Source: Schistocephalus solidus
Taxonomy: Eukaryota; Platyhelminthes; Cestoda; Diphyllobothriidea; Diphyllobothriidae
Direction: 5' to 3'
Assembly: GCA_017591395.1 (NCBI GenBank)
Contig: WEDG01001075.1
Coordinates: 62,001 to 126,000, forward strand
DNA: 64,000 nucleotides
Shown: positions 6,481 through 61,503 of the stretch, piece by piece
Numbering within the stretch: the first letter of the stretch is position 1
Layout: each line of letters begins with the position of its first letter
Notes under the pieces: generated by a model
What the model saw: the letters and a program-made list of their open reading frames with translations, nothing else
The model's database searches: none
What the model was told of the DNA's origin: nothing
Made by a program: the position numbers and the translations under genes

Positions 6481-6833
6481 CGATCAAACTGAGAACAAGT
6501 AATTACCCGCCTTCCAGCTGTCCACCACGCGCCCAGAATTCAGGAGAAGGATGATCAAAAAGATTGAAACATCGCCCTCCTCCTCAATCAATTAGATGAT
6601 TGAGAATCTCCATAACCAACCAGGCCCCTTCTCAACGATAATTCAAAAGCCTAAGTAATCTCATATATCCTAATGTTACCACCTATGCATCATGTGAGGC
6701 ATGTTACCATAATTATCTCCGACAAATAAAATGTTATTTGACTATAAAACGTAATGACGATATAACTATGGTTCCCACAATCACCTCTTCTACTTATATA
6801 TACTCACATATCCGTATATACCAAGCTCATCAT
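6481..6833. other. AT-rich spacer
   Basis: No gene or repeat is recognised. The spacer lies between the 3' ends of two PLE remnants. Confidence 0.4.
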
Positions 6834-8240: not shown

Positions 8241-8289
8241 ATTAGTGCCGAAGGATAATGACATTTAGAGGCAAGACACATTCGTTAAG

Positions 8290-8680
8290 ACAGAGTTTAA
8301 AAATCAGTTGCCCATCCTTGAAGTACAAATGACTTAGCTGGCAGATAAGAAAATAAGGACAATGGCCTACGGGAAGGTAACTAACACCATGTTTTTCCTC
8401 CATCCTCGAAAAAATCACCCTGTTGGTCACAAACGCAGTTGTGTTAGAACCCTTTCACAACGTGTTCAAACACACTGCAGCGACGACAGTTGGAAAAAGG
8501 AGAAGACTAAGTACTTGCATGCCCTAGTTGAAGCCAACGGTTATTCGAAGCCTTTTATACGCAATTGACTTAGGAAGCCAAACCTCGAGCGATCAAATGG
8601 AGAAGAGCCGAAGTTCTGCCTCGCGATGCCTTATGCAAAAAAATGTATCAGAGACGGACGCATGAATCCTGAAAGCTTTC
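8290..8680 (+). pseudogene. PLE reverse transcriptase, C-terminal fragment
   Basis: The frame at 8362-8568 contains NTMFFLHPRKNHPVGHKRSC and VRTLSQRVQTHCSD. This is the diagnostic end of PLE RT (NSNHP..HK..CVRTL..R...HC), which lies between the RT thumb and the GIY-YIG linker. Just upstream the same strand reads NQLPILEVQ, the PLE LPFLDV motif, followed by a stop in place of one codon. The RT catalytic core (motif A and the YADD-type motif C) is missing upstream because the copy is truncated. Confidence 0.75.
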
Positions 8681-8689
8681 GGGATTGGT

Positions 8690-9133
8690 GTGGCTGATAA
8701 GCATCAATCAAAACTCATACAGCATTTCATTAGGGCAAAAGAACCGCTACCAATGACAGAACAATCAGCAGTGGTCTACAGCATATCATGCCGAAACTGT
8801 GAGGGAAGGTATATTGGTGAAGCAGACAAACGCCTTGGCCCAATATTTCATGAACACCAGCTTGCAATAAACCATAAGGATAAGCTTTTTACGGCCTATG
8901 GCCACCTAGAACAGAAAAACCACCATTTCAACTGTGGGAAAGTGAGGGTAATCGGTCGAGTCAACGATATGATGGCCAGACTGCTGCTCGAAAGTTGGTC
9001 CTCGACGGGCACACTTAACAGAGCCAAATACTTGCATCGTGCCTACCAGGCAATATGCAGAAGACTAGAGTCGGTTCGGGCAGTGCCAATGGGACATTCG
9101 AGCAAAATCAAGCATGACGACAATGGATGTTAG
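8690..9133 (+). pseudogene. PLE GIY-YIG endonuclease domain
   Basis: This is the clearest GIY-YIG domain in the window. VVYSI (residues 28-32) and YIGEA (41-45) form the two strands, with the CxxC between them (C34, C37) that is typical of PLE endonucleases. R48 and E55 in the EH motif (HEH, 54-56) are in the expected catalytic places. TLNRAKYLHRAYQAICRRLE supplies the final conserved Asn block. The domain nicks DNA to prime insertion in PLEs. The ORF starts at a GTG only because an upstream frameshift cut the polyprotein; the true start lay upstream. It ends at a TAG just before the charged tail. Confidence 0.8.
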
Positions 9134-9238
9134 AAAATAAAGAAAAGAGGAGCCAGCCAGAAGCCACGTGACCAGCGTGGAACATCACCGCACCACCACG
9201 CCAAGGAGGCTAAAATCAAATCTGGCGGGTAAAAACGA

Positions 9239-9517
9239 TTGATCGGTCCGTTGGCTGACAAGAGGCAGGCCACTTCGCACGCTGACTTGCCAACAAATAA
9301 AATGGCATCAAAAGGAATAACGGTCACGCGAGGGGAGAGATTAAACCTGATCAGCAGCAAACAGGAGGGTCAAATTTCATACGCCGAGCCGGGAAATAAT
9401 ACCAGGCAGGCGTCAAGGCTAAAAAGTGAAAACCAGTTAAAAGATCATTTGCAGAACTCTGATGATGGTAATGAAGGGATTTCCGAAACGTCAGTCCTTA
9501 TTTATTTAGGTCCATGA
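9239..9517 (+). pseudogene. PLE copy d C-terminal tail ORF
   Basis: The peptide (KGITVTRGERLNLISSKQEG, NNTRQASRLKSENQ) is homologous to the tail in copy c at 6849-7214, and both follow the GIY-YIG domain. It has no recognised fold. The last third overlaps a hammerhead-like motif (9451-9497). Conservation between the copies could reflect protein coding, RNA structure or simply recent common ancestry. Confidence 0.45.
9451..9497 (+). ncRNA. hammerhead-ribozyme-like motif in PLE 3' region
   Basis: CTGATGA (9459-9465) is followed by a weak stem-loop and GAAA (9485-9488), then CGTC with a candidate cleavage site after C9492. The flanks GAACT and AGTCC give a short stem I with one mismatch. A one-base-pair palindromic helix III (ACGT) is known for PLE hammerheads. 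Stem II is imperfect (a bulged U and a U-U mismatch), so activity is doubtful. Confidence 0.3.
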
Positions 9518-9589
9518 TCTCGTCCGTTCTTTTTGGTCTCCTCACAGATAATGAGCTCATTAAGTTATCTGAACCTCGACACATTCATC

Positions 9590-9609
9590 ATATATATATA
9601 TATATATAT
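9590..9609. repeat. (TA)n microsatellite
   Basis: About ten uninterrupted TA dinucleotides lie just downstream of the PLE copy d 3' end. Confidence 0.9.
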
Positions 9610-12600
9610 TTATAAGGTATACATTGTTCAAATTTACAAAATTCGTTGTGGAATGAGTAGTCTTTGACATGGGACCAGGCGCTCACTTCCTATTCTCTTT
9701 TCAAAGATCAGAAACCAAATATGAATCGTCGTAGTTCCACGTCCTATGCCTTAGCAAAATTACGAGTGTTGATTGGATCTTACATTTATTTTTTGATTAG
9801 ATTATTGACAGCATTGTATATTAAAGATTGATATGCTTAAATTATACAATAACGTATCAAAGCAATAAATGCCACCCTGGACCCCAGCTGGATATACTGA
9901 ACTATACGTGCTATACCTCAAAAGTATTGGCCATTTTTATTTGCCAAAATCGCATTTCATTTAGACATTTTGTTATTTACCTTCCATCATTTCCGTGTTT
10001 ATTAACTTGATAATACCTCTCAAAAAATGCGCTGAATAACGATATTTTCCGAGCTCGGATTAAAACGGACAGTTGTTTTGGCATTAAACATAGAAAGAAT
10101 TCAGAGATATCGTGGAATACAAATGAACTTCGTAAGAAATATTCGGGATTTTTCTAATCTTATCTTTTTTAAATTTAAACATCTGTCACTGAAAAATATG
10201 AAGCTGGTTGCTGTTTTAAAATGATAGCTGTTATGCAATAGGCATTCCTTCGAAATATCGTGAATTTTTAAAATGATATTATGGACCTTTTGGCTGTCGA
10301 TTACGACGAGTTAAACCATTTTCTCCACTGGAGGCAAGTACAGGGATGGTACGTTGGCGTGAATTAATTGCAAGCGATAGAAGACTTGTGCTGCATATAC
10401 CGCTTTCTCTTTTTTCTCACCATCTGTGTCTCGTTTCTTGATAAGTTCAAGAAGGCCGACGGTTTGTTCTGTCGCACGTGTGAGTTATCATATACTTGGT
10501 ATCTAAAACATTGATAGAATTAAATCAATGTGGAGAAACATGCCAGCCACCAGCAAATTCTCCCGATTTCGGTCATTTTGACTTGGTCGAGGAGATGGCA
10601 CGTTAGCTTATCGGGTATCTGAAAGGAATTTGCTTTTAATTCATGGTTTTTTGGGGTTTGCAGAGGTGCTTTAATTTTTTTACATTAAAAGTTGCCAAAG
10701 GTTTGTAAAAATAAACTTTGAGACAGAAATAATGTAATAAACCTCAACTAATTTAGCCAATTATCTACTTAAAAGTGAAAAAGGAGAATATGCACAATGA
10801 AATAATAAATAATTTTAGAATAACTTTAGGGTGGGTTTGAAAAATGCTCAATTTATCTTGTATGAGACCTATTGGAGAAATTAATTTTAGTTGAATATGT
10901 AAAAAGTATCGGTATTATTGAAAAATATATCATAAGTCAGACACAATTAAATGTTTGTGAGGAAACGTTTGATAACTCTTTGCGCTATGAAAAGCACCTG
11001 GACCATCGTTTATCGGTAGATCAACTGATCCTGTGAGGCTGAATAAGAGTGTTGGTAAAATTTAACGTTTATCGAGAGCAAGCCGCACCCTTAGGTATGA
11101 TCCATAAACATGCGTGATACTTATGATTAAGAAAAATGGTGTACGGAATCCTAGAGCCATTTTTTCAATTCCCATTTCTTTCACAAGGCAGGTCAAGGAC
11201 ACCAACATCAATCAATTGAATGGTGTCTCTTTCACCCTATCAAACTAAAATGTTCACCGTAAATTCCCAACAGGAAGCTGGGAACATTCCACACTATTAA
11301 AAGGGGTACTATGGATACGTGCGTTGTTGACACCCTTTGCTTTTAGGTCAGAGTTTACAAGAGATCCATCAAACTATGGTTTCTATACAATAATTTATTG
11401 ACGAAAAAGCTGTTCGAAAACATCAGTTAACTCATTTACGTAAAGACAAAAAGCAGAATATCATGAAGCAAATAACAAGCAGACTGAAATGGCATTTTAT
11501 GCATTATTACTTGTCATTAGTCAGTCATACCCAAACCCAATTGTTGTAAACCCAAGGCTTTAACTTGCAACTTGTCGGTTGGATGTTTGACACTTTGAAT
11601 CACTGCGCCACGAAACCCTTATTTATGTCAATTTCAGTCATAAATAACATTGTGTCTATATTTCTAGTTGCTGTGTTGCTGCAGGCTCGGCTAGATTGAG
11701 CCCCATTTCACAAAGGGGCGAATGAATCCTGCAAACGATGGATGAATGCCTACTTATTATTATTTAGGAAGTGATCGCTTAAATGTTCTAACAAGGGAGA
11801 TGTGAACCTCTGGTAGACACGTAATCGTGTATAATATGTTTCATTGATGATACGTAGGCTAAACAGGACTGCTTTGTACAATAAACAATAAAGAAGACGA
11901 GAGAACGGAGGATATTCATTTTGAAAATGTCCATTTTGATTTTCGTTAAATAACTTAAATCTGTCCCTGTGTCGAGAATAAACATTATTGGACATAGAGT
12001 ACATACATTTAAAGAGGAATACACAACTTTAATGAGCAGAGCAACTTTAATTTCATGTAGTTCAACCTCTGTGCACGTCAGATATGGGATAGTGTTTAAC
12101 ATACGTAGACTTATTATGCGGGCGTGCGGCGAAAAATAGTGCGATACCATTTCATTATATATATATATATTTGAATTAATAACCGCATCGAAAATCAATG
12201 AGAAAATTGTGTACTACTTTAGTAGCCAAATTTTACAGCTGAGTCGTTATGCGGGCTCTCAGGATGAAGCTCCTTCAAAATTCGATGTCCCTCCATGACT
12301 GATGTGTCTTGCTATTAGGCTGCAGAAAAATTAATACGACAAACCCAAAAACGTAATTTGTTTGAATGGAAAACACTTTTAAGAATTTCTGTTAACATTT
12401 GATGACCTAGGGAATCTACAAAAAGCCTCAAACTCACTCAAGGCTACTTAAGTAAAAAGAAGTTAAAATATTCTGCAACAAACGCAGTCTTGCCAACTGG
12501 TAAATACTCTGCCAATGTCACTATGGGGATTAATTTCCACAAGCACATTGATGGCATAGACGTGACATGCCTTTTCTAGAGGATGGGTGACGTATTAAGC

Positions 12601-25200: not shown

Positions 25201-25563
25201 TAGGCTCAATGCTTGTACAGTTGTGCACGGAAAATAATGGTCCTCCTGCTTTTCAATATTCGATGGAGTACGTATGGAAGCGAGGGTCGAAGCTCATTTT
25301 AAGAAGCATGGAAACGGAAATTATTTATATGTGCACCTTATTTTAGCAGGATTGAAAAAGCTGAACACATGGCAAAAGGAATTTATATTCAAAACTGTTT
25401 TAACTAGAGTAAACCTACCGAGATCAAACTTGCCTTTTAAGGCAGAGATGAAAGTTACTTATAACTTTTTAAATATTTACAATTTCTATACCAATTGTTA
25501 GTTCGCCATTTTGTTTCCCAATTCACAAAACATATTTTAGTCTTAATTTATGTGAGAATACAA
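22229..25563. other. AT-rich stretch, no supported gene
   Basis: No recognised coding or repeat sequence. Three short overlapping plus-strand ORFs at 25040-25501 have no domain and conflicting frames. Confidence 0.5.
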
Positions 25564-25570
25564 AATGAAG

Positions 25571-26876
25571 TGGCAGTTCGACAGTCGATTTCGACGAGGT
25601 CCACCGTATGCTCCACACCAGGTGGTGCAGGGACAGTGACTTGCGCGTTATTTAGTTTTAAGTGATAGTAGCCTTGCGCTGCAGCTACTGCACTCTCTCC
25701 TCCTCCCCCACATGAGCCCGGTCTAATGACACAGTCAAGAAAACCGGAAATGGGAGAGTGCGCAGGTGGCTGGTGAGGCCGGAACCGCCCCTGGGCGTAC
25801 CACCACACCTGGCTCGGATCCCAAAGAGTGATAGTACCATAAAGATCACATTAAAAAGTAGCCATTGCAGCCTGACTCTCAGTCCACCACTCCACACAAA
25901 AGCACCCATTAGGCTGACCACGCGGTCCGAGTTATCCCATCAGTTGGCAACCTTCCAAGCTACGGCTTTTAGCGCACCGTCAGTTTTAAGCGCGTCAGAT
26001 TGTTTATAGTGAGGAACATGCGCTGAGATGTCGACCTCACTCTCTCCACAACCCCCACCATCAAACACTGTCCGAACCGGTCAGTTGCCTGATGTGGGAG
26101 TGGGCACATTGGCTGACGGATCGGCGTACCCGTCTTCGCACGCCACAGCACAACCTGGTCCCCATAACGCACACACCAGGATTCACAAACTCAGGGGATA
26201 TGGAGCAGCCATCGCCGTCTTACTCCCAGTCCACTGGTCAGCCACTCGACACACACAGCACATACACTGAGCCGACGGCGTGGTCTGGTGGAAGCGACAG
26301 ATTGACAGACTTTCCAGCTACGGTTTCTAGGAAACCGTGATATTCTCTGGTAAATGGTGATTGTGAGGGTGTTGTAGATGTATTGGTGTAGGTAGTGTGC
26401 GCTGATGTAGGTTAGCCTACGGTGGTTTACCGGAGGTTGTCATGGAGGCGCATGTGTCCTTACAGGCCCATGCGGTGTGTAAATGTGCGGGAGCAGTGAG
26501 GGCAGTGAAGGCGGGCGCGTCGACTGTATGTCGGAGCCCTAGGCACTGCTTCACTAGCCTCCGTGCGATGGATTCGCAGGTGACCGACCAGGCCGATGCG
26601 GGAGTTGAAGTTGCGGGCGCAGTGTAGGCAGGAGAAATCGGTAGAGGCTGGGGCGATGTCATTCATGGTAGTGGGGGTGGCACGGGCGCTTAAAATGGCA
26701 AGAGCGGAGGGTGTGCATGGTGTATCGGTGTTGTCGGCATTGTGGTGTATTCCGCTGTCAGGGATGCGCATGTGACCGAATAGGCCCATGCGATGAGTGA
26801 ATGCGCGAGGACAGTGAGGGCAGTGGAGGCGACGATCTCTGCTGTGTGATGGTGCTCCAGGCACTGGCTCACCGGT
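25571..26876 (-). mobile_element. LINE copy 1, 5'-truncated (zinc-finger tail plus 3' UTR)
   Basis: The element reads right to left. Zinc-finger coding sequence at 26876-26430 is followed by the 3' UTR, which ends at about 25571 with the family's terminal sequence (minus-strand GGTCGAACTG-like, here GTCGAACTGCCA). The 3' UTR matches the LINE copy at 48.0-49.4 kb through both of its internal modules. There is no EN or RT, because the 5' truncation falls inside the zinc-finger region. AATGAAG flanks both sides (25564-25570 and 26909-26915), a possible 7-bp target-site duplication. No poly(A) tail follows the 3' end. Confidence 0.8.
26460..26864 (-). pseudogene. LINE C-terminal C2H2 zinc-finger fragment
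   Basis: Three C-x2-C-x12-H-x3-H type fingers are visible in order. The first is CPHCPRAFTHRMGLFGHMRI followed by P (last His lost). The second, CLHCARNFNSRIGLVGHLRI with His following, is intact. The third is CPHCSRTFTHRMGL, cut by a stop and continued in another frame. The fingers repeat the pattern at the end of the 48-53 kb LINE protein, so this is a detached LINE C-terminus and not a host transcription factor. The frame is entered at a truncation and has no start. Confidence 0.75.
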
Positions 26877-26905
26877 GATGTTGGTGTTAAGTCAACACCA
26901 ACATC
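26877..26905. repeat. perfect 12-bp inverted repeat at the LINE 5' junction
   Basis: GATGTTGGTGTT and its exact reverse complement AACACCAACATC are separated by AAGTC. The palindrome sits precisely between the point where LINE homology stops and the putative target-site duplication, and it has no counterpart in the other LINE copies. Confidence 0.8.
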
Positions 26906-27106
26906 AATAATGAAGAAGGAACGTGCAAAAGACAATGAAACTGATATAAAAGGCTATATTTCGGATCCTCCATCGCATGCAACCATTAAGTATTTCCGAA
27001 CCGCAAATAAAACTACAAGTAGAGTTAATGACACAGAATACTCATGAACCATCAGATCATTTTAAGTGCTAACGTAAAAATTCAATATTTGTGGCATATT
27101 TTTCAG

Positions 27107-27154
27107 GAAGGATCAATGAAGCTCACGTAAACGATTTCTTGCATGCAATCGCAG
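27107..27154 (+). CDS. possible micro-exon, unrecognised
   Basis: A 48-nt block is bounded by a canonical acceptor (CATATTTTTCAG) and a CAG|GTAGTG donor. In the open frame it reads RINEAHVNDFLHAIA, with the same intron phase as the 3' edge of the 22121-22228 candidate. The good splice signals and phase match are suggestive but could be chance. The 4.9-kb interval between them contains the LINE copy at 25.6-26.9 kb. Confidence 0.2.
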
Positions 27155-28860
27155 GTAGTGGTGCACGGATTATAATAAATAATTTATTATCACCGAAGGA
27201 GCCATGCAGTACGTATTCAGTCAATATAAGAAATAAGTTACAGCCTATGGAAAAAGGTTTTGCGCCATATAGTCGCTAACAATTAGCACCCAATAAAGGT
27301 ATTCATCATTGGAAGTCGAACTGCCAGCAGGAGATTTGACACACAAAGAAGGTTATTGTTTGTTAAGAAGAAACATCAAGTAAAGATAAGAAATATTTTT
27401 TCTTTAAGTAGGTCAAGGATATGATATTAGCTTTAAAGTGCAGCTTAAATAGAGATGTAATTGAACTTTGCTTTCGACACACATTAAAAACCGCGAATAG
27501 TCATGTTGACAGAGAGACGGAAGGATAACGCCTATTGTTAGAGGCATAAGGAAAATTTTACTACATTTTTTTAAATGTGAAGAGTTTAATGAGGTTGGCA
27601 TCATGGTGGTCTTTAAAATTGCCATGAGTAACAATACGTAAAAGAGGTTCATGTAAGGGCAAAGGGCGGAAAGAGAAACTATGTATAATACGTTTGCCTT
27701 CTTGACTCAGACAGCAGATTGGTACCTGAATTTGGGAGGAGGACGAGACCGAGGCGAGAGGCTGCTCTTTTTCCTGTCTTTACCTTAACTAGTGTGCTTG
27801 CAAACTATCATGATGCACTAAAATCAATGTCCTGGAAGTTTATCAAATTATTAGCTTATAAAATCCTCCTCTAAGAATGAAGAGGTGGGCTACATTTGCT
27901 CGTTTCAAGTGTGCCCTCTATGAAAGTGTCACATTGATGTGTTCTGAGCTGACCTTGCTCCATTGTGCGCAAACACGTCCTAAGTGACAATCGTGTTCAT
28001 TTCATTTAGTTTTATAAACCACTGTGCAAGATTCCGTCTGCAATCCTCTTGACCAAGTTTTGGCACACCACTCAGATGGAAAGGTAGAGTGTAATGCAGT
28101 TATTGTTGCGCAAATCTATTCTATCCATAAACGAATAGACTCAAAGTTAACCTGTCATGCACTAGTCAACCTGCTAGACACATGATTAAAATCGTCGTTC
28201 CAATGGATAGCCTCTTGGTTATAGGTGTTGATCGCAGTTAAGGTTGCTCGAAAGGCAACCAGGATAAGGAAAATTGAAATTTTCTTTAGTTTCATTTTAT
28301 GCGATTAATTGCCTTGGAAATTTAAGATCCGTAGGCACCTTTTTCTTGTCTCAAGTCCTTGCTGAGTAAGAGTGCAGCTGTACATTAACATGATTTTTAC
28401 GATAGAGAGAGCTACTCTTTTTTTAATGTAAATTCTACAAATTTTAGTAAAAAAATCCTGCATTCACCGTGAATAAGTTTGGGCATACAAATCACAAAAC
28501 ACCGGATGATCACAAAGGAATGGCCGTAGAATGCAGATATTGACAACATGAACAGTCACCATTAAATGCGTCTCATAACATCGATCAAATTGAATTTCCT
28601 TCAAAACGGTGCCAGCGTCGTACGCTGATGTCCTCATTATTGTTTTTCGAATAAACAAATAGGGTTAAAATCCGGTAGATAATGGGTTAAATAGGCCAAT
28701 CGACCTACATATAAGAGGATTGACATGCCAATGAAGAGCAGAAAAGATGGCGGCACAATTTCGTTCGCAAAGGTAAGTGTTCCGGGGTGAAATTCAGGAA
28801 AATGTAAAGTGCTCACCAAACTGGTTTATTTTGTCATTGACATTTTGGAGAGCTTTACTG
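27155..28860. other. AT-rich stretch, no supported gene
   Basis: Nothing recognised; the ORFs are short and featureless. The last few hundred bases adjoin the 3' end of a minus-strand PLE remnant. Confidence 0.45.
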
Positions 28861-29480
28861 GCTCTCAATTTTAAAGCGCTACTGGTAATATTGATCAGTG
28901 TCTTGAAGTACAGACTGAACTTGTTGGCCTGTGGAGTGATCGATTTTTTTCTCGTTCACTACCTCGGCCTCTGCGTGGATATTTGCAGCTGCACAGCCAT
29001 TGGTGTTGGGCAACTTCATATCGGTCGAGTGAGTGGTAAGCCAACCTTCTCTGCCAATTAGTTCGTCGCGGGGCCATCGTTCCGGTGTAACTATTTTGTC
29101 CTGGTCTCTATGTATACAAGGATGCAGAACATAATGAGTTTTTGGAAGGTCTATATGCCTGTTGATAGTCTTAGCATCTGAATACCATACCTCAAGCGAA
29201 AGTCTTTCGACTTTTGAGGTTCCTAGGTCAATGCTAGTTGCTAATTGAATTTCAAAAAGTGTGGCCACTTTCCGATATGAATTGCAAGCTGTGAGTTTGT
29301 GTCGAGCATCCAAGCCGCCAGTTTGCGCTTATGCAGGCGTGCCTGCAATTTCTCCGATGGATTTGCTTGGAGATAGTCAATGTCTGCGTCGCATAACACT
29401 GCAGCTGATAGACGAGACTCGCAGGTTCATAAAACACTAGCTGAAATTCTGCAATGTGGTTTTGATTCAAAAGAATATTT
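28861..29480 (-). mobile_element. Penelope-like element remnant (GIY-YIG endonuclease)
   Basis: Three collinear minus-strand pieces in three frames rebuild a GIY-YIG domain. LVYQLQC (about 29425) supplies the first strand. SEKLQARLHKRKLAAWMLDT (about 29360-29300) supplies the R...H.. helix, with the usual EH replaced by KR. The 29313-28879 frame then gives FEIQLATSIDLG, SLEVWYSDAKTINRHIDLP and THYVLHPC, the LE.W.S...INRHIDLP..Y signature of PLEs. The C-terminal tail runs on to about 28880. The catalytic Glu is not seen and there are two frameshifts. It is a separate subfamily from the 5-9 kb copies, with a more canonical INRHIDLP block. Confidence 0.7.
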
Positions 29481-29961
29481 TAGTAATGCTTGGATGATTT
29501 AGTACCTCGCTGCAAAAACCTCTGATGTACCAGTATCCTCAGAAATTCGGTTTTGTGTCACCTGATAAGATGGGTAGGAGCATTAATTTGTAATCTGGAG
29601 ATCAAACAGGGATATTCCACATCATCTTATAAAAGACATTACTAAAAACGTCAAATAACCAGTCATACAATTAAGTATTTTGGTACAGTTGTCTTCTATG
29701 GCCACCTTAACAAGATACTGGGACGGAAACGCCCCGCTTATTTAAAAAAGGTAACCTTGCGATTTAATTTCGGGAAAGGTCAATATTGTCATGACTTAAC
29801 CTTAGCAAGAACCCTATCATTAAACTAAATGTATGCCTTCATATAAATCTTCGCAATACCCTGAAACATAAATCTATTGTTATCACGAGCGCAAAACATA
29901 ACCCTTAATATTCTCCTGAACCTAACCACCATTGCGACTTAAGCCAACCTATAACTTTACC
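29481..29961. other. spacer, no supported gene
   Basis: Nothing recognised. The left part could be decayed PLE sequence upstream of the GIY-YIG remnant, but no motif supports it. Confidence 0.4.
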
Positions 29962-30512
29962 ATGCGCCCACTCCCACATCAGACAACTGACCGGCTCGGA
30001 TGGTGGCCTGATTGTGTGGAGTGGGGGAGAGAGTGAGGGTCAACAGCTCCACGTATTTTCCTCACTATGAACAATCTGACGCACTTGAAACTATCACGGT
30101 GCGCTTAAAGCCGTGGCTTGGAAGGTTGCCAACTGACGGGATAACTCGGACTGCGTGGTCAGCCCAATGTGTGTTTTGTGCGGAGTGGTTGACTTGCGGA
30201 ATGAGAGTCAGGCTGCAATGGCTCCTTCTTAATGTGGCCTTTATGGCACTGACCATCCGTGGGATCCGAGCCAGGCGTGGCGGTACGCCAAGGGGTTTCT
30301 CCGGCCACGCCAACCACCTGCGCCCTCTCCCATCTCCAGTCTTCTTGATTCTGTCTTGACACCGGGCTCAGGTGGGGGAGGAGGAGAGAGTGCAGTAGCT
30401 GCAGCTCAAGGCTACTATCACTTAAAACTAATTCACGTGCAAGTTACCGTCCCTGCACCACCTGGTGTGGAGTATACGGTGGACCTCGTTGAAATCGACG
30501 GTCGAACTGTCA
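29962..30512 (+). mobile_element. LINE copy 2: ~550-bp 3'-end-only insertion
   Basis: This plus-strand copy contains only the distal 3' UTR module of the LINE, from ATCAGACAACTGACCGG (29978 on) to the shared terminus CGGTCGAACTGTCA at 30512. The flanks TAACTTTACC (29952-29961) and TAACTTACC (30513-30521) look like a target-site duplication with a 1-bp indel. There is no poly(A) or simple-repeat tail. Its 5' end lies within about 16 bp of that of the nested copy at 48856. Open frames within it (30012-30598) are repeat conservation, not genes. Confidence 0.8.
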
Positions 30513-32234
30513 TAACTTACCCTAATCGTAGTCCTTACAATCTCCTTAATACTAACTTTAACTTCCCCAGAATAAGGGTCAAAGCTGCTTGCATTTGATG
30601 TGGCTCCATTTCCCGTGTCCTGTTAAGAAAGCCATGCAAACCAACACTACCACTTGCTTTGCATATGAAAAAGAAAGAACCAATGTAAATAAATTGTGTT
30701 ATTTGATTCTAACACACGACAGCAAGAGGGACCTATTCGTACAACCATGGCTCAAACCGCTTGAGCTTAGAGGCCGCACTAGGAGCTAAGAGTTGTTATA
30801 CACTTGCTAATTATTGAATGTTGCAACCAATGTGCATGCTACATATTATTCTGAGCAGCAACTCCAAGAAGTTACATTTATCTTGCTTTCAGGTAGACGA
30901 CTGCTTGGCGTCTACGTCTTGCTCTCATTTTACTGCATTTCTTTTTTTCACAGATGTCATGGGGTTTACACTTGGCTCCCGATTTTTAACTGTAGGCCTG
31001 GGAGTCCACCTATTGTCTACGTAGTATGCTTTTTTATCCTGCTGGAGTTTTTTATGCAGAGCCGTAAATTCATATTTAATTGCTGGGGTGTGTCTAAATA
31101 GGGCACTTGAAAAAGGCAATTCTTCCTCTTTCGAAAAACTGCTTTTTTTTTCTGCTGTTTCGCTCTTCCTTTCGGTGCACACACATAAAGATGTTTGCTC
31201 AGTGTCGGATGATTACAGGCCCAAATGCTATGACGCTTGTGAGTGTCGTTAGATTTATCTCTAGTTACGGACAAGAAGTTGTTAATTGAGAAGAGTGAGG
31301 CTAATTTTGGCGCTTTCTGTGATTTCTATTATTTAGCGTAGTAAGCGTTTACTTTGCTTTTTGGTGGTGCAAACGCGTTTTGAACTACTCTGGTCAATAG
31401 CTCTAAAATATGGCCGTGTGTCAAACCAAACACACAAGATGGTAAAATCGTTAGAAAAAAACCTAATATTGTCACTTGGTGACCATGGTTTTTAATAAGT
31501 TCTTAAAAGACTCTTCCGGAGAATAATACGTGTGTGTGAATTTTGCAACTGTACAAAATAACAATTGCTGAAACACCGTGTCGTTTGTAAAAGCTCCACC
31601 TTTTGTCTCAATGGTTACCCAAAATCATTATTTAAAAATATACATGTGTTAATTGGCCAGAAGCACTGAGCATTCGTAATGAAACACATACAGTTCATGA
31701 TCTAAGAAAGGAACGATCAAAAACATCGTAGTAAGTTTTTTTAAATGCACATTCAGCCCTCCCCGTATTAATTAAGGTTTTATTGCAATGAACAACCAGC
31801 AGCTCTATAAAAGAAATATCGTAGTTTGGAAATTACTATTTTTTGGTTAACAAATACCCAATTTTGTCAAAACCATAAAATAGGGTCAATTATCAAAGGC
31901 TTAATTTACCTATTAGCAGATAAGTAAAATATAATAAAATGAAAATGTATGAAATAATACAAACATACGTTACACACTAGTTCTTTCCTTTCTGCCATTT
32001 ACGTGCCATACCACTGCTTTTTGGGTTGACGAAGAAACCACCTCGTTACCTATAATGAACATTTCTGAAATTGTTGATGTAAAAGCCAGTTATTACGTCC
32101 TTGAAAAATGAGTAATTGCATCGAATTAACTTCCTTGAAAAATCGCAATAAGATTTTACATAGAATTCAGCATCTGAATGTTAGTAGAACAGCGTACTAT
32201 AATAAGAAATATTTTGCGTTAAATATTGCCATAC
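30513..32234. other. AT-rich stretch, no supported gene
   Basis: No gene is recognised. A 7-bp perfect inverted repeat (GTAGACG/CGTCTAC, 30895-30917) and several overlapping ORFs at 30.8-31.3 kb were seen, but none has a domain. Confidence 0.45.
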
Positions 32235-32586
32235 ATTGCTTAACTACATTGCCATACATTGCTAACTTCCTGAACAAAATGAATTGACGCAGAAATCCTC
32301 AATTCAGAAAAGCGAAAGGTTTAAGGACATAAGAAATTTATATATCAGTATTAATCATTTGTAAATGAACTTGAGCAAAACAAAATAAATACAGTGCATT
32401 AATACAGTGCATTGCTTAACTACATTGCCATACATTGCTAGCTTCCTGAACAAAATAAAGTGACGCAGAAATCCTCAATTCAGAAAAGCGAAATGTTTAA
32501 GGACATAAGAAATTTATATATCAGTATTAATCATTTGTAAATGAACTTGAGCAAAACAAAGTAAATACAGTGCATTAATGCAATTT
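32235..32586. repeat. tandem duplication, 2 x 176 bp
   Basis: The block starting ATTGCTTAACTACATTGCCA at 32235 is repeated from 32411 with only a few differences (for example GCTAAC/GCTAGC, AAAGGTT/AAATGTT). The copies are head to tail with a period of 176 bp. The unit itself is AT-rich and matches nothing else in the window. The duplication lies 0.2 kb upstream of LINE copy 3. Confidence 0.9.
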
Positions 32587-48023: not shown

Positions 48024-48846
48024 ATGACAGTTCGACCATCGATTTCGGGGAGGTCCACATGTATGCTCCGCACCAGATGGTGCAGGGACGGTGACTTATG
48101 CGTGAATTAGATTTAAGTGATAGTAGCCTTGCGTTGCAGCTACCACACTGTCTCCTCCCCCCCCCTACCTGAGCACGGTGTCAAGACAGAGTCAAGAAGA
48201 CCTGAGATGGGAGAGAGCGCAGGGGGTTGGCGCGGCCGAATCCGCCCCTGGGTGTACCACCACACCTAACTGGGATCCCACGGAGTAGGAGTGCCATAAA
48301 GGCCTCATTATGAAGAAGCCATTGCAGCCTGACTCTCAGTCCGCCAGTCAGCCACTCCACACAACACACATATTGGGCTGACCACGTGGTCCAAGTTACC
48401 CCTTCAGTTGGCAACCTTCCAAGCCACGGCTTTTAGCGCATCGTGATAGTTTCAAGCGTGTCAGATTATTTATAGTGAGGAAAATGCTCTGAGCTTTTGA
48501 CCTCACTCTCTCCCCCACTTCCACAATCAGACCACTGTCCGAGCTAGTCAGTTGTCTGACGTGCAAGTGGGCGCATTGGCCGACGTGTCGGCGTACCCGT
48601 CTTCGTGCGCCACAGCACGACCTGGCCCCCATAACGCACACACCAGGATTCACTTAATCAGTGGATTTGGAGGAGCCATCGCCGTTTGATTCACAGTCGG
48701 CTGGTCAGTCACTCGACACACACAACACATTTACTGGGCCTACGGCGTGGTCTGGTGTAAGCGTCAGATTGGCAGCCTTCCAAGCCACGGTTTCTAGGAC
48801 ACCGTCATTTTATCAGGCACATTATGATGATTGTGAGGGTTTTGTC

Positions 48847-48855
48847 TATGTATTA
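48847..48855. repeat. target-site duplication, left copy
   Basis: TATGTATTA here is repeated exactly at 49396-49404 and brackets the nested LINE 3'-end insertion. LINE copy 1 at 26.3-26.4 kb shows the uninterrupted site (ATGTATTGGTG), which confirms that the insert is extra. Confidence 0.85.
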
Positions 48856-49395
48856 TCCTATATCAGACAACTGACCGGCACGAACAGTGGTTTGACTGTG
48901 GGGTTGGGGGAGAGAGTAAGGTCAACAGCTCAGCGCATTCTCCTCCCTATGAACAAGCTGACATGCTTGAAACTATCACGGTGCGCTAAACGCCGTGGCT
49001 TGGAAGGTTGCCAACTGACGGGATAACTTGAACTGCGTGGTCAGCCCAATGTGTTTTTTGTGCGGAGTGGCTGACTGGCGGACTATGTAAAAGGCTGCAA
49101 TTGCTCCTTCTTAATGTGGCCTTTATGGTGTTCCCACTCCATGGGATTCAAGCCAGGTGTGGTTGTACGCCCAGGGGCGGCTTTGGTCGTACCAGCCACC
49201 TGCGTCCTCTCCCGCCTGCTGTCTTCTTGACTCTGTCATGACACTGGGTTCAGGTGGGGGAGGAGGAGAGAGTGCGGTATCTTTAGCGCAAGGCTTCTAT
49301 CGCTTAAAACTTATTCACGCGCAAGTCACCGTCCCTGCACCACCTGATGTGGAGCACACGGTGGATCTCGTCGAAATCGACGGTCGAACTGTCAT
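48856..49395 (+). mobile_element. LINE copy 5: 540-bp 3'-end-only insertion nested in copy 4
   Basis: It starts TCCTAT then ATCAGACAACTGACCGG, runs through the distal 3' UTR module and ends GGTCGAACTGTCAT. It lies opposite in orientation to its host and is flanked by a perfect 9-bp TATGTATTA duplication. There is no tail. The six leading bases (TCCTAT) do not match copy 2 and may be untemplated or filler. It is younger than copy 4, into which it inserted. Open frames such as 49157-49405 are shared with other copies because of repeat homology. Confidence 0.9.
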
Positions 49396-49404
49396 TATGT
49401 ATTA
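49396..49404. repeat. target-site duplication, right copy
   Basis: TATGTATTA is identical to 48847-48855. The host LINE 3' UTR resumes immediately after it with GTGTAGATGGCGTGC. Confidence 0.85.
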
Positions 49405-49445
49405 GTGTAGATGGCGTGCACTGATTTGGCTTAGCCCCCGGTGGT

Positions 49446-49990
49446 TTACTGCAGGTTGTCGTGGAAGCGCATGTGTCCTAACAGGCCCATGCGGTGTGTA
49501 AATGCACGAAAGCAGTGAGGGCAGTGGAGGCTGGCGTGGCGACTGTATTTCGTAGCCCAAGGCACTGGTTCACCAGCCTCCGTGCGATGGATTCGCAGGT
49601 GACCGACCAGGCCGATGCGTGCGTTGAAGTTGCGGGCGCATTGTGGGTAGGAGAAATCGGTAGAGGCTGAGGAGATGTCATTCATGGTAGTGGGGTGGCA
49701 GTGGCTGTACGAATGGCAGGAGCAGAGGGTGTGGATAATGTATCGGTGTTGTCGACGTTGCAGTGAATTCCGCTGTCATGGATGCGCATAGGACCGAAGA
49801 GGCCCATGCGATGAGTGAATGCACGAGGACAGTGAGGACAGTGGAGGCGATGATCTCTGCTCTGTGTCGGTGATTTAGACACTGGTTCACCAGTCTCTGT
49901 ACGATGTATTCGCAAGTGACCGACCAGGCCGATGCGGGAGGTAAATGTGCGGTTGCAATGAGGACAGTTTAGGAGAGAGTCCCCATCGCT
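49446..49990 (-). pseudogene. LINE C-terminal C2H2 zinc-finger cluster
   Basis: Four fingers of the pattern C-x2-C-x12-H-x3-H are encoded on the minus strand. CPHCNRTFTSRIGLVGHLRI (about 49975-49910) is intact. CPHCPRAFTHRMGLFGPMRI (about 49850) has its first His changed to Pro. YPQCARNFNARIGLVGHLRI (about 49650) has lost its first Cys. CPHCFRAFTHRMGLLGHMRF (about 49510) is intact. A frameshift near 49682 separates the first pair from the second. The cluster follows the RT and CCHC finger of the same element and presumably served nucleic-acid binding or targeting. It ends at a TAA at 49446. Confidence 0.8.
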
Positions 49991-50578: not shown

Positions 50579-51644
50579 TTACCTCAGCATGACGTGGATG
50601 TTGAGGATTCCGGTCCGCTCCAGGACCTGCGTGTCTGGGATCCTGTTTTGCCATCTCAGCTTCAGTATTCTGCGGAGGCAGCTGATGTGGAGGAGATTCA
50701 GTTTCCTGGCTTGATTCATGTAGACAGTCCAGGTCTCCGCTCCGTAAAGGAGTGTCATCAAGACAACGGCCTTGTACATCTTCATTTGGGTGTTCAGGTG
50801 AATACCGTGGTGATTCCACACAGAGGACTGTAGCCGGCCGAAGGCCTGACTAGCTTTGGAGATCCATTGGGCAACCTCGTCATCGATTCTCGTGTTGCGT
50901 GACATCGTGCTTCCTAGATAAGTGAAAGTTTCAACGTTTTTGAGTTGAGCGAAGAGCAAGTCATGGACTGTAGTCTTAGACACGTGCGTTGTAGCCTGCA
51001 TACGCCGATTGGTGAGAAGGGGCCCGTCAGTTCTGTAGGCGATGCTGATTCAAGGCTGCTCATCATGGTAGGCGTCCATCAGCACAGCCGCAAAACATGA
51101 AACTGAAGAGGATGGGGGCCAGTACGCAGCCCTGCTTCACTCCTTTGGTCACTGCGAATGCTTCGGATACCGTCCCGTTGTCAGTGACGCTCGAAGTCAT
51201 CCCATCATGATGCTGACGCACCATGTGCGTGAACCGCTCAGGACAACCAAATTTCTGCATGACTTTCCACAGTCTGTCACGATTCTACGTATCAAAGGCT
51301 TTCGTTAGATCCACGAAGGTAGTGTATAGGTGAGTTCGCATCTCCTGGCAATTCTCTTGTAGCTGGCAGACAGCAAAGATCATGTCGGATGTTCCACAGT
51401 GTCGGCGGAAGCCACATTGGCTTTCCGGGAGCAGGTTCTGCTCTAGGTGACCGTTAAGACGATTAAAAAGGATATGGGTGAAGATCTTCCCGGCGATGTT
51501 GAGCAACGAGATGCCTCTGTGATTATCACAGAGTTTCCGGTTCCCCTTCCGTTTATATAGATGGACGATGGTCGCGTCTTTGAAATCCTGAGAAACTTGT
51601 CCTTGACGCCACATCCCCTGGAAGAGTATTGTGAGTTCTGCCAT
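50579..51644 (-). pseudogene. LINE reverse transcriptase lacking its catalytic motif C
   Basis: 51644-51285 encodes the RT fingers and motif A (LYKRKGN, NHRGISLLNIAGKI, LPESQCGFRRH and FVDLTKAFDT with the first catalytic Asp). 51260-51063 carries motif B (GVKQGCVLAP). One extra base near 51090 shifts the frame after MF, and a TGA follows at about 51048. The next frame (51001-50579) reads TTVHDLLFA and continues at once with [13 protein letters not shown]. The segment that should hold the two Asp of FADD and the following ~35-50 residues is therefore gone by an in-frame deletion at about 50955. The thumb-like part ([35 protein letters not shown]) remains. Confidence 0.85.
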
Positions 51645-52403
51645 CAGCCGGGGCCCACCATGCTTGTAGACTTCCAGTGGGATTTCGTCGGATCCTGGTG
51701 CTTTACCGCTGGAAATCTATTGCACGGCCTGGATGGTTTCTGGTAGGAAAGGCGGCAGATTCAGGGCATTTTTCATGTCCACTTGAGGGAGCCGGTCAAT
51801 GGCAGCATCGGAGATGGCTGATGAGCCATTAATGACACTTCTTACGTGCTCGGCCAGGTGCTTCAGAAATTTCGATTTTTCTGTCAGCAGTTTTGTGCCA
51901 TCAGAGCTGAGCAGTGTTGCGGTACCCTTTATTCGCGGGCCGTCGATGCTTTTGAATAAGTTTTTAATTTCACTGTGGTCCGCATACCTCTGGATTTCCT
52001 CAGCCTTTCGGATCGTCCAGGCATCTTGCATCTCCCTCGGCCGATGCTGTACAATGCGCCGGCATCTGAAGAAGGCTGCTTTGGTGGCGTCAGTCAGATG
52101 GTCCATGTAGGCTTTGTGTAGTTCATTCTTCTCCGCAAGTAAGATGCTGATGTCGGCGTCATTGTCGTCAAATAGGTCCTGGTGTTGACGGCGTGCGCGT
52201 CCGAGGACTTCAAGGGCGGTGGACTGGATGACATTTTGCAGTTGACACCATCATGTCTTCAGGGTAGCATTATCATCTGGTACATGCAGGTCATCGAGTT
52301 TCTCGGGTTTTTGGTTGCTGAAATCAAAACAGTGAGCACGCAAATTTAATAAAAGAGTATTTAGCTTACCTGACAGTCTTTTACCTTGGGGCCTTCGTTG
52401 GGG
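51645..52403 (-). pseudogene. LINE EN-RT linker region
   Basis: This links the endonuclease and RT. 52106-51717 reads as an open frame (FFRCRRIVQHRPREMQDAWT, RKAEEIQRYADHSEIKNLF, AISDAAIDRLPQVD). Upstream (52400-52110) decayed sequence still shows STALEVLGRARRQHQDLFDD in another frame. The same DA.IDRLP block marks where copy 3 resumes after its endonuclease deletion. Confidence 0.7.
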
Positions 52404-58390: not shown

Positions 58391-58434
58391 AATATATATA
58401 TATATATTTAAGTAGAACCAACAAAGACAAGGGA

Positions 58435-58479
58435 GACCTGAACGGCCTTTTCTGGCTTATTAGCCGTCATCAGCAAGTC
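58435..58479 (-). ncRNA. hammerhead ribozyme motif, unit 1
   Basis: Minus strand: stem I GACTTG/CAGGTC, core CTGATGA, stem II CGGCT-AATA-AGCCA (closing pair mismatched), GAAA. Stem I differs from other units by G-to-T and C-to-A on opposite strands, keeping the pair. The helix III palindrome is partly lost. Confidence 0.65.
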
Positions 58480-58739
58480 ATACAAAATCTCAAGTGTGGA
58501 CTACCTGGAATTCGTACCCACAACGTTTGGTAACTGAGTGAAACACTCTACCATTGAGCCACGGGCCCGCTGTTTAATCTGATGTGATCGGGAATATAAG
58601 GAAAGTGTGCGGCTCACCGATCTGCTTAAAAAATATGTATGTTCCGTTGTACCCAGGAGCTCACTTAAGAGCCCCGGCAGGCGGTTGCATAGTGACGTGA
58701 AGCATATGTTGATAAAGTGAAACAGACAAAGACAAGTGA

Positions 58740-58784
58740 GACCCGAATAGCCATTTCTGGCTAATAAGCTGATATCAGCCAGTC
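58740..58784 (-). ncRNA. hammerhead motif, unit 2 (core mutated)
   Basis: Stem I GACTGG is kept, but the core reads CTGATAT instead of CTGATGA and stem II is altered. GAAA is present. Probably inactive. Confidence 0.5.
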
Positions 58785-59044
58785 ATACCCAATCCCAAGT
58801 GTGGACTACCTGGGATTCGAACCCGCGACATTTGGTAACTGAGTTGAATGCTCTACCATTGAGCCACGGGCAAGTTATTTTGTCGGTTGCGATTGGGAAT
58901 ATGATGATAGTGTGCGGCTCACCGACCTGCTTAAAAAATATGTATGTTCCGTTGTACTGAGGAGCTCACTTAAGAGCCCCGGCAGGCGGTTGCATAGCGA
59001 CGTGAAGCATATGTTGCTAAAGTGAAACAGACAAAGACAAGTGA

Positions 59045-59089
59045 GACCCGAATAGCCATTTCTGGCTAATAAGCTGATATCAGCCAGTC
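59045..59089 (-). ncRNA. hammerhead motif, unit 3 (core mutated)
   Basis: Identical to unit 2 over the motif (CTGATAT core), as expected if units 2 and 3 are a recent duplication. Probably inactive. Confidence 0.5.
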
Positions 59090-59338
59090 ATACCTTATCC
59101 CAAGTGTGGACTACCTGGGATTCGAACCCGCGACCTTTGGTAACTGAGTTGAATGCTCTACCATTGAGCCACGGGCAAGTTATTTTGTCGGTTGCGATTG
59201 GGAATTTGATGATAGTGTGCGGCTCACCGACCTGCTTAAGGAACATTGTGCCCCGTAGCTCACTTTAGAGCCCTTGCAGTCGGTCGCATAGCGACGTGAA
59301 GCATATGTTGATAAAGTGGAACCAAAAAAGATAAGGGA

Positions 59339-59383
59339 GACCGGAATGGCCATTTCTGGCTTATTAGCCATTATCAGCCAGTC
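59339..59383 (-). ncRNA. hammerhead motif, unit 4 (G8 changed)
   Basis: Stem I GACTGG/CCGGTC, stem II TGGCT-AATA-AGCCA and the ATGGCCAT helix III palindrome are perfect. The core is CTGATAA, with the essential G8 replaced by A. Confidence 0.6.
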
Positions 59384-59640
59384 ATACACAATCCCAAGTG
59401 TGGACTACCTGAGATTCGAACATGAGACCTTAAGTAATTGAGTCGAACGTTGTACCATTGAGCCACGGGCCCGTTGTTTTGCCGGTTGCGATCGGGATTA
59501 TGGTAATAGTTTGCGGCTCACCAATCTGCTTTTGAAACATGTTTGTTCCATTGTGCCCTGGAGCTTACGTTAGAGCGCTCGTAGGCGGTCGCATAGCGAC
59601 GTGAAGCATATGTTGATAAAGTGGAACTGAGAAAGACAAG

Positions 59641-59687
59641 GACACCTGAATGGCTATTTCTGGCTTATACGCTGTCATCAGCCTGTC
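59641..59687 (-). ncRNA. hammerhead motif, unit 5
   Basis: The CTGATGA core and GAAA are intact. Stem I (GACAGG versus CAGGTGTC) and stem II (CAGCG...AGCCA) are disrupted. Confidence 0.5.
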
Positions 59688-59935
59688 ATAACCAATCCGA
59701 AAGTGTGGACTACCTGGTATTCAAACCCGCAACATTTAGTAATTGAGCAGAACGCTCTACCATTGAGCCACGGGCCCGTTGTTTAGTCGGTTGCGATCGG
59801 GCATATGGTGATAGTGTGTGCATAATGAACATGTATGTTCCGTGGTGCCCTGGAGCTCACTTAAGAGCCCACGCAGGCGGTCGCATATCGAAGTGTAGCA
59901 TGTGTTGATAAAGTGGAACTGACAATGGCAATGGA

Positions 59936-59980
59936 TACCGGAATGGCCATTTCGGGCTTATTAGCCATCATCAGCCAGTC
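59936..59980 (-). ncRNA. hammerhead ribozyme motif, unit 6
   Basis: The core CTGATGA and GAAA are intact and helix III ATGGCCAT is intact. Stem I ACTGG/CCGGT has 5 pairs, and stem II GGCT-AATA-AGCC has 4 pairs with a mismatched closing pair. Confidence 0.7.
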
Positions 59981-60240
59981 ATACCCAATACCCAGTGTGG
60001 ACTTCCTGGGATTCGAACACGAGAACTTTTGCAATTGAGTCGAACGTTGTATCATTTAGCCAAGGGCCCGTTGTTTTTTCGGTTGCGATCGGGAATATGA
60101 TGATAGTGTGTGGCTTACCGATATGCTTAAGGAACATGTATGTTCCGTTGTGCGCTGGAGCTCACTTTAGAACCCTTGCAGTCGGTCACATAGCGACGTC
60201 AAGCATATGTTGATAATGTTGAAACGACAAAGACAAAGAA

Positions 60241-60284
60241 GACCAGGATGGCCATTTCTGGCTTATTAAAGTCATCAGCCAGTC
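60241..60284 (-). ncRNA. hammerhead ribozyme motif, unit 7
   Basis: The core CTGATGA and GAAA are intact, and helix III is followed by C at position 17 (ATC triplet), the preferred cleavage base. Stem I is GACTGG/CTGGTC. Stem II (CTTT...AGCCA) is broken. Confidence 0.6.
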
Positions 60285-60544
60285 AATCCCAATCCAAAAT
60301 GTGGACAACCTGGGATTCAAACCCAAGACCTTTGGTAATTTAGTCGAACGCTCTTTTATTGAGCCACGTGCCCGTGGTTATGTCGGTCGCGATCGGGAAA
60401 ATGAAGATATTATGTGGCCTACATACCTGCTTTTGGAACATGTATGATCCGTTGTGCCCTGGAGTTCACTTAAGAGCCCTCGCAGGCGGTCACAGAGCGA
60501 CGTAAAGCATATGTTGATAAAGTGGAACCGAAAAAGACAAGGGA

Positions 60545-60589
60545 GACCGGAATGGCCATTTCTGGCTTAAACGCCGTCATCAGCCTTTC
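60545..60589 (-). ncRNA. hammerhead ribozyme motif, unit 8
   Basis: The core CTGATGA, GAAA and ATGGCCAT are intact. Stem II CGGCG-TTTA-AGCCA and stem I GAAAGG/CCGGTC are weakened by mismatches. Confidence 0.55.
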
Positions 60590-60992
60590 ATAACCAATCC
60601 CAAGTGTGTACTACCTGAGATTCGGCCCGCGATCTTTGGTAATTGAGTCGGCCCGTTGTTTTGTCGGTTTTAATCGAGAAAATGATGATAATGCGTGGCT
60701 CACCGATCTGCGTAAGAAACATGTATGTTACGCTGTGCCCTGGAGCTCACATTAGAGCCCTCGCAGGCGGTTGCATAGCGACGTGAAGCATATGTTGATA
60801 AAAAGGAACCGACAAAGACAGGGGAGACTAGAGTGGGGAGCCTGCGAGGGCTCTCAAGTTAGCTCACTATCATCATATTCCCGATCGCAACCGACAAAAC
60901 AACGGACGCAAGGTTCAATGGTAGAGAGTTCGACTCAATATCCGCAGGTCGCGGGTTCGAATCCCAAGTAGTCCACACTTGGGATTGGGTAT

Positions 60993-61037
60993 TACTGGCT
61001 GATGATGGCTTACAAGCCAGAAATGGCCATTTCGGTC
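60993..61037 (+). ncRNA. hammerhead ribozyme, unit 9, best preserved
   Basis: Plus strand: stem I ACTGG/TCGGT (G-U wobbles allowed), complete core CTGATGA (60999-61005), perfect 5-bp stem II TGGCT-TACA-AGCCA, GAAA, the helix III palindrome ATGGCCAT, then T17 as predicted cleavage base. All catalytic core nucleotides are present. Helix III has no loop of its own, so it may act best as a dimer, as known for hammerheads with palindromic helix III. Confidence 0.75.
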
Positions 61038-61296
61038 TCCACTGTCTTTCTCGGTTTCCATTTAAAAACATATGTTTCCAGTCGCTATGCGACTGCCTGC
61101 GGGCGCTCTAAAGTTAGCTCCAGGGCACAACGAAACATCCATGTTCCATATGCAGATTGGTAAGCAGCACACTTTCATCATATTTCCGATCGCATCCGAC
61201 ACAACAACGGGCCCGTGGCTCAATGTTAGAACGTTCGTTTCAATTACCACAGGTCGCGGGTTCGTATCCCAGGTAGTCCACACTTTGGATTGCGTA

Positions 61297-61342
61297 TTAC
61301 TGGCTGATAACTGTTAATAAGCCAGAAATTGCCATTCCGGTC
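61297..61342 (+). ncRNA. hammerhead motif, unit 10 (G8 changed)
   Basis: Stem I ACTGG/CCGGT and GAAA are kept. The core reads CTGATAA and stem II is weak (CTGTT...AGCCA). Probably inactive. Confidence 0.5.
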
Positions 61343-61503
61343 TCCGTTGTCTTTGTCGGTTCCACTTTATGATCATATACTTTACGTTGCAATGCGATTG
61401 CCTGCGAGGGCCTTTAAATTGAGCTCCAGAGCACAACGGAACATACATGTTCCATAAGCAGATCAGTGAGCCGCAAACTACCATAATGACAATTGCCAAC
61501 ATC

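Follow-up and report, generated by a model that had tools for sequence, protein, structure and literature searches.

A tandem array of tRNA-derived units in Schistocephalus solidus

The window analyzed here, a 64,000-nt stretch of the tapeworm Schistocephalus solidus (assembly GCA_017591395.1, contig WEDG01001075.1, positions 62,001 to 126,000 of the forward strand), carries at 58410-61490 an array of ten ~305-bp units. All ten contain a hammerhead-like domain, preceded in most of them by a tRNA-like head; in the family consensus, the core of the domain lies ~34 nt past box B. Eight units make up a minus-strand arm (58410-60828) and two a plus-strand arm (60830-61490), the arms being inverted head to head. 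An earlier note on this DNA had described ten ~300-bp units in a single tandem array; their number and length were borne out and the units are indeed tandem, but they form two opposed arms instead of one run. The locus comprises the following features.

58392-58407: (AT)8 microsatellite at the sense 3' end of the minus arm, abutting the array end; presumed insertion target
58410-60828, minus: minus arm; in sense order the incomplete unit M0 and units M1 to M8, running from near 60828 (5' end) to site A at 58410 (3' end)
58410-58566, minus: unit M8, truncated at site A; core CTGATGA, C3 at 58473
58567-58871, minus: unit M7; core CTGATAT, C3 at 58778
58872-59176, minus: unit M6; core CTGATAT, C3 at 59083
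59177-59470, minus: unit M5; core CTGATAA, C3 at 59377
59471-59775, minus: unit M4; core CTGATGA, C3 at 59681
59776-60067, minus: unit M3; core CTGATGA, C3 at 59974
60068-60371, minus: unit M2; core CTGATGA, C3 at 60278; tRNA-like head at 60302-60373 (29.0 bits)
60372-60648, minus: unit M1; head truncated; core CTGATGA, C3 at 60583
60830-61490, plus: plus arm, opposed head to head to the minus arm; incomplete unit P0, then P1 and P2; 3' end near 61487 (site B)
60904-61210, plus: unit P1; degenerate head; alone in combining an intact core (C3 at 60999) with a paired stem II; cleavage predicted after 61031
61211-61490, plus: unit P2; core CTGATAA, C3 at 61304

Pairwise likeness of the window units is mostly 75-84%, and we take the copy to be old because the complete units within its two arms average only 0.80 and 0.84 alike. 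M6 and M7 are 91% alike, against ~74-81% for the other units compared with M6, and are the sole pair to look like a later duplication. No reading frame of at least 120 amino acids overlaps the array, a weak test for units so short, and the flanks hold no repeat longer than 6 bp as a target site duplication, which a (TA)n target would mask.

The heads, with their boxes A and B, have the makeup of a tRNA-derived short interspersed element (SINE). The earlier note had recognized tRNA-type RNA polymerase III (Pol III) boxes and regarded eight heads as intact; the tRNA-like heads are confirmed, but that count was too generous, as box A agrees with the family consensus in 5/10 units (M4-M8) and box B in 3/10 (M6, M7 and P1; alignment, by eye), and the head of M1 is truncated. 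The Rfam tRNA model matched the M2 head (minus strand) at exactly its gathering score, and an Rfam search of the whole window at gathering level listed nothing, tRNA or hammerhead. Elsewhere in the genome, a young unit (locus L010) scored 27.3 bits, below the cut-off of 29, and a unit of a sister family, family B (locus L062), 31.7 bits. ARAGORN in bacterial mode called zero tRNAs.

Abundance and age of the family across the genome

The genome searched comprises 603.7 Mb in 8019 contigs. The 35-nt core of young copies gave 17,346 exact matches, against 0 for its backward control, and a search with one unit gave 6849 candidate places, 39 of which were scored and yielded 128 matches. The 37 fetched loci provide, together with the window, 105 complete units in 32 arrays. 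Likeness of units averages 0.955 within arrays versus 0.912 between them and is higher within than between in 24 of the 27 multi-unit arrays, the three exceptions being L015 and both window arms. Judged by these comparisons, the window array is an old copy of a large, very abundant and partly young family. The divergent family B in the same genome has the hammerhead-like domain too.

As a blind sample, we used the first 200 kb of contig C4519, chosen as a long contig, whose known match at 241 kb lies outside the sampled part. It holds 19 matching places, mostly divergent members with another 3' body, among them two ~320-bp tandem dimers; the tRNA-like head is present in this group.

Insertion ends

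Ends were mapped relative to the predicted hammerhead cut (position 0), after removal of arms shorter than 100 bp or with a best identity below 84% (window exempt). The fetched DNA includes the 3' end of 39 of the 52 arms. Fifteen of these ends lie at positions 26-42 (site A) and 17 at positions 131-152 (site B); the other seven lie elsewhere and include two family B dimers that passed the filters. Thus 32/39 ends fall at A or B, against 5.0 expected (P=1.6e-22). An (AT)n run of n≥4 occurs within 25 nt of 21/32 A/B ends, versus 0.3% of random 28-mers from one contig, and the site B end fused to (AT)n has 139 exact occurrences in the genome (control, 0). By eye, CAC...TATCA directly precedes (TA)n at both sites. 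In the window, (AT)8 adjoins the site A end of the left arm; the site B end of the right arm has no AT run.

The sampled loci are biased to full units because most came via similarity search. The blind 200 kb contained two family A insertions, one (C4519:38465-38772) with a site A end and (TA)n on both sides, the other (C4519:159258-159674) with a site B end and (AT)n on its 5' side only. Five of the eight (AT)≥6 clusters in this sample are located at an end of a unit or a Penelope-like element (PLE). Head-to-head junctions occur, by coordinates, in 9/38 sources; at G000:C572:217311-217354, two site B ends meet tail to tail within one (TA)n run (coordinates only).

The 5' ends are scattered and show no enrichment at the predicted cut (3/37 versus 1.6 expected). 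In a post hoc count, 5/37 coincide with the T-loop of the tRNA-like head (positions 231-237 past the cut; 0.8 expected); reverse transcription could stall at a modified or folded tRNA-like head and give such ends, an equally post hoc suggestion.

Penelope-like elements of the same genome

Defined internal 3' ends, an AT-rich target and inverted arms, as found above, are the marks of PLE-type integration. The window itself carries PLE sequence:

6824-9592: PLE fragments, two similar inverted stretches found by self-comparison, 6824-7799 (minus) and 8287-9557 (plus; 3' end ~9589)
9459-9494, plus: PLE-type minimal hammerhead motif, CTGATGAT...GAAACGTC
9590-9609: (AT)10 microsatellite at the PLE 3' end (plus part)

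The open reading frame (ORF) at 8666-9133 shares 60% identity over 146 amino acids with the end of an open 362-amino-acid relative in the genome, in which a reverse-transcriptase (RT) match (E=1.7e-5) is followed by GIY-YIG (E=6.8e-4), both under the curated Pfam cut-offs; RT then GIY-YIG in one frame is described as the canonical PLE order (PMC11167929). The ORF alone had zero Pfam matches, and a PDB search with the PLE sequences gave no match.

The genome search gave 547 PLE candidates; 40 of them were scored and 18 plus-strand 3' ends fetched. GAAACGTC is exact in 17/18 fetched copies, and the motif begins with the same CTGATGA-Y-GG as the unit domain. Among the 40 scored of the 547, matches end at position 343-359 (10) or 378-393 (30, window included) of the window-copy query, and the majority sequence of the 18 fetched ends stops 70 or 101 nt past the cut of the motif. 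An (AT)≥4 run directly follows the PLE end in 15/18 fetched 3' ends, and in 6/18 a family A unit lies further along the 251-bp stretch. In all its 64 kb, the window has three runs of (AT)≥6, two of which adjoin the array end and the PLE 3' end.

A 3' tail common to unit and PLE was considered and rejected: we do not claim it, because its significance was lost with the 18-copy PLE majority sequence.

Proposed origin of the array

As far as sequence can show, these units form an abundant, partly young family with two fixed 3' ends, often at (TA)n, and some head-to-head arrangements, and the PLEs of the genome match it in target and end architecture. We consider it probable, though by no means certain, that the window array arose long ago, when a PLE inserted a non-autonomous retroelement of tRNA origin into (TA)n from the internal sites A and B.

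In the mechanism we envisage, Pol III would transcribe single or multimeric unit RNA (the family consensus holds no run of four T), and the GIY-YIG/RT protein of a PLE would cut (TA)n. Reverse transcription, primed on one target strand or on both, would then begin inside the unit at site A or B, and with a circular or multimeric template the resulting tandem arms could differ in length and have ragged 5' ends. A bolder version, which we offer tentatively, is that the units are a tRNA-derived circular RNA parasite of the PLE, primed on both strands of the (TA)n break from two fixed starts, with several rounds per circle. If true, head-to-head tandem arrays would be written in one event, and the unit would be a non-autonomous partner tied to the PLE by its insertion ends.

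Several observations weigh against PLE-mediated insertion of a hammerhead-derived unit. Eleven of the 32 A/B ends, the window right arm included, have no (AT)4 nearby. The unit's site B resembles the tail of the window's divergent PLE copy (p=0.0008), site A does not (p=0.62), and against the PLE majority sequence four tail comparisons gave p=0.12 to 0.92. The proposed unit-PLE link is one of common target and end architecture. Mean variation is 0.030 within the hammerhead-like domain versus 0.055 overall, yet 17/305 circular shifts are equally low. Finally, variation in the core does not peak at N7, where a hammerhead tolerates any base (CUGANGA): N7 varies in 1% of the 105 units, and in 4/26 rows of a wider alignment versus 5/26 at G8.

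The hammerhead-like domain and the alternatives

CTGAT...GAAA is present in 10/10 window units. The earlier note had assigned complete hammerhead motifs to every unit; GAAA holds in all ten, but the core is CTGATGA in only 6/10 (CTGATAA in 2/10 and CTGATAT in 2/10), and a fully paired stem II together with an intact core is limited to P1, the one unit (60999) that fits the full hammerhead descriptor. Chance would rarely produce this descriptor, with 0 occurrences in 60 Mb of simulated single-strand sequence of the window's dinucleotide content (the relaxed descriptor occurred once). Helix I cells are paired in 83% of cases across the ten units. CUGANGA, GAAA and A15.1-U16.1 are found in the majority of the 105 units, young and old; the listing of motif-fitting rows and the core-bounded 305-bp majority of 37 units were preselected by the motif and were excluded as tests of the core.

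The domain is also conserved: of 30 positions that vary in at least 12% of units, 0 lie inside its 61 nt (6.0 expected, P=8e-4), and at thresholds of 10, 15 and 20% the counts are 1/38, 0/21 and 0/14 (P=0.0013, 0.0077 and 0.041). Further hammerhead traits are a palindromic helix III of the minimal kind beside the cut, an outer helix I, and a 6-bp helix I whose pairs are all Watson-Crick in several copies of family B. A relic of the domain lies beyond the array at 11481-11552 (minus), 76% identical.

The covariance-model match that a conventional hammerhead would give did not appear: Rfam returned no hammerhead for the window at gathering level, for the array or P1 alone at E≤10, or for the other stretches searched. 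This miss is not decisive, because the PLE-type motif of the genome likewise has no Rfam match.

In the canonical retrozyme explanation, tandem transcripts are cleaved by an active type I hammerhead, and the ~305-nt monomers circularize to serve as RT templates. The intact CUGAUGA and GAAA of most young copies, helices I and III as above and the higher likeness within arrays would fit it, though homogenization at the DNA level could equally yield that likeness; three arms of about one circle (297-308 bp: L027 minus, L028 minus and C4519:38465-38772) could come from a circular template. Against it stand, besides the Rfam result and the scattered 5' ends, the stem II closing pair, which is C10.1-A11.1 in 99/104 units instead of the pair expected of a type I hammerhead, and U at the cut position in 25/26 rows. 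Position 10.1-11.1 is described as the most conserved pair besides A15.1-U16.1, with a natural U-U known (PMC3088659). An active subfamily with a G-C stem II was entertained and dropped, since that canonical form has 0 exact matches genome-wide. A CUGANAA core is reported as inactive in a schistosome element (PMC8490949), and this type of core in M5 and P2 is counted against hammerhead activity. The predicted secondary-structure energy of the 61-nt monomer is -12.6 kcal/mol for the hammerhead versus -22.1 kcal/mol for the best hairpin (helix III and tertiary contacts left out). We consider this canonical cycle in full rather unlikely.

Alternatively, the domain may be a conserved stem-loop (GGGATTGG/CCGGTCTC and CTGGCT/AGCCAG) bound by the PLE protein, its hammerhead likeness being relic or chance. 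Beyond its more stable fold, this hairpin pairs more cells than the hammerhead (88.6% versus 76.3-79.9% in the ten units; 87.6% versus 81.6% in 26 rows), and its covariation score in the ten units was reached by 34/500 shuffles, versus 323-439/500 for the hammerhead. The 26 rows comprise 14 of the 25 C4519 domain matches, the window relic, nine of the ten window units (without M7) and two young units. In this wider set the hammerhead has 23 further pair types, a number reached by 6/500 shuffles, and the set therefore does not favor the hairpin. Covariation, tried as an arbiter between the two folds, gave no decision, and RNAalifold on the ten units returned a third fold with zero compensatory pairs. 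The core, GAAA, helix I and the palindrome all occupy hammerhead registers, a descriptor unlikely by chance, and the PLEs of the genome carry a related minimal motif with the same start; we consider it rather unlikely that the domain is a stem-loop and no ribozyme.

In a further alternative, unequal exchange or extrachromosomal circles would have spread the arrays, chiefly as satellite DNA, and retroposition would only have seeded them. This would suit the very long arrays (ten units to the contig end at L029; three fetched pieces of C343) and the M6/M7 pair, but is improbable given that otherwise unrelated DNA contains short insertions, one to three units long, which share the two 3' ends and in many cases lie at (TA)n.

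As traits for and against coexist, we name the domain hammerhead-like rather than hammerhead. We infer that it is hammerhead-derived, of the minimal type with a palindromic helix III found in PLEs, and it probably either acts as a hammerhead that is weak, dimeric or helped by protein, or provides an RNA fold for the PLE protein to recognize. Of the overall interpretation in the earlier note, the design of the schistosome Sm-alpha element and metazoan retrozymes gains support genome-wide, with a tRNA-type promoter and a hammerhead-like domain in a retroposed tandem unit. The self-cleavage into ~300-nt monomers and their circularization that it proposed fare less well, in view of the Rfam null, C10.1-A11.1, U at the cut, the 5' ends, the age of the window copies and the 4/10 changed window cores, and both stay hypothetical.

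Other repeats of the window

Two direct copies of 173-176 bp, 96-97% alike, lie at 32234-32582. Dispersed repeats ~81-86% alike occupy 25557-30513 and 48024-49894, two of them with C2H2 zinc-finger coding pieces. Broken RT frames at 50579-52250 (minus; RVT_1, E=4e-10 for 51288-51716) were read as non-PLE, on judgement alone.

Comparison with known systems

The literature consulted already documents tRNA-derived hammerhead elements from schistosomes, as well as tandem hammerhead repeats from many animals. Schistosome Sm-alpha and Sj-alpha are described as tRNA-derived and SINE-like, with a type I hammerhead and >10,000 copies, and a 335-bp relative has been reported (PMC2770079, PMC8490949). 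Our units resemble them, by description rather than alignment, in joining a tRNA-derived element to a hammerhead-type domain at high copy number; the Sm-alpha hammerhead is active, whereas that of the units is only predicted and unseen by Rfam. The literature matches listed for hammerhead elements in tapeworms included no such work.

Metazoan non-LTR (long terminal repeat) retrozymes are presented as 150-450-bp tandem repeats with a hammerhead-like domain, platyhelminths being briefly named among the phyla (PMC7229834). The 305-bp units agree with them in being small, non-coding tandem repeats within this range, with such a domain and in multimeric arrays, and differ in the tRNA-derived head, the stem II closing mismatch and the pair of fixed 3' termini at (TA)n. 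According to one review, metazoan retrozymes lack any conserved motif from which the mobilizing element could be deduced (PMC7761336); another account names PLEs as strong candidates, the autonomous partner being otherwise an open question (PMC7229834). We read the element described here as a variant of the metazoan retrozyme or Sm-alpha kind, probably mobilized by PLEs. Relative to the literature examined, the link to PLE integration through insertion ends and the stem II departure kept in most copies appear to be new. With C-A at 10.1-11.1 and U at the cut, the family also raises the question of how far a hammerhead may stray from consensus and yet be retained by the element.

A close parallel for the ends is the Anolis PLE, PAc, whose protein is reported to cut AT-rich DNA in vitro and extend both strands, with two internal RT starts and a 30-40-bp tail between them; hammerhead cleavage was dispensable for insertion in vitro and occurred only with protein present (PMC11167929). 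The PLE of S. solidus likewise has an AT-rich target, ends 31 nt apart and a hammerhead motif upstream of them. By analogy, reverse transcription of the units would start at two internal sites in an AT-rich target, and the inverted layout of the arms would parallel the extension of both strands in vitro. Unlike PLEs, the units are non-coding, and beyond the predicted cut they extend for 26-42 or 131-152 nt. A single genome allows the ends of thousands of units and of PLEs to be compared, and the samples agree in target, end architecture and inverted layout; this agreement makes the mobilizer question testable with one protein and one RNA.

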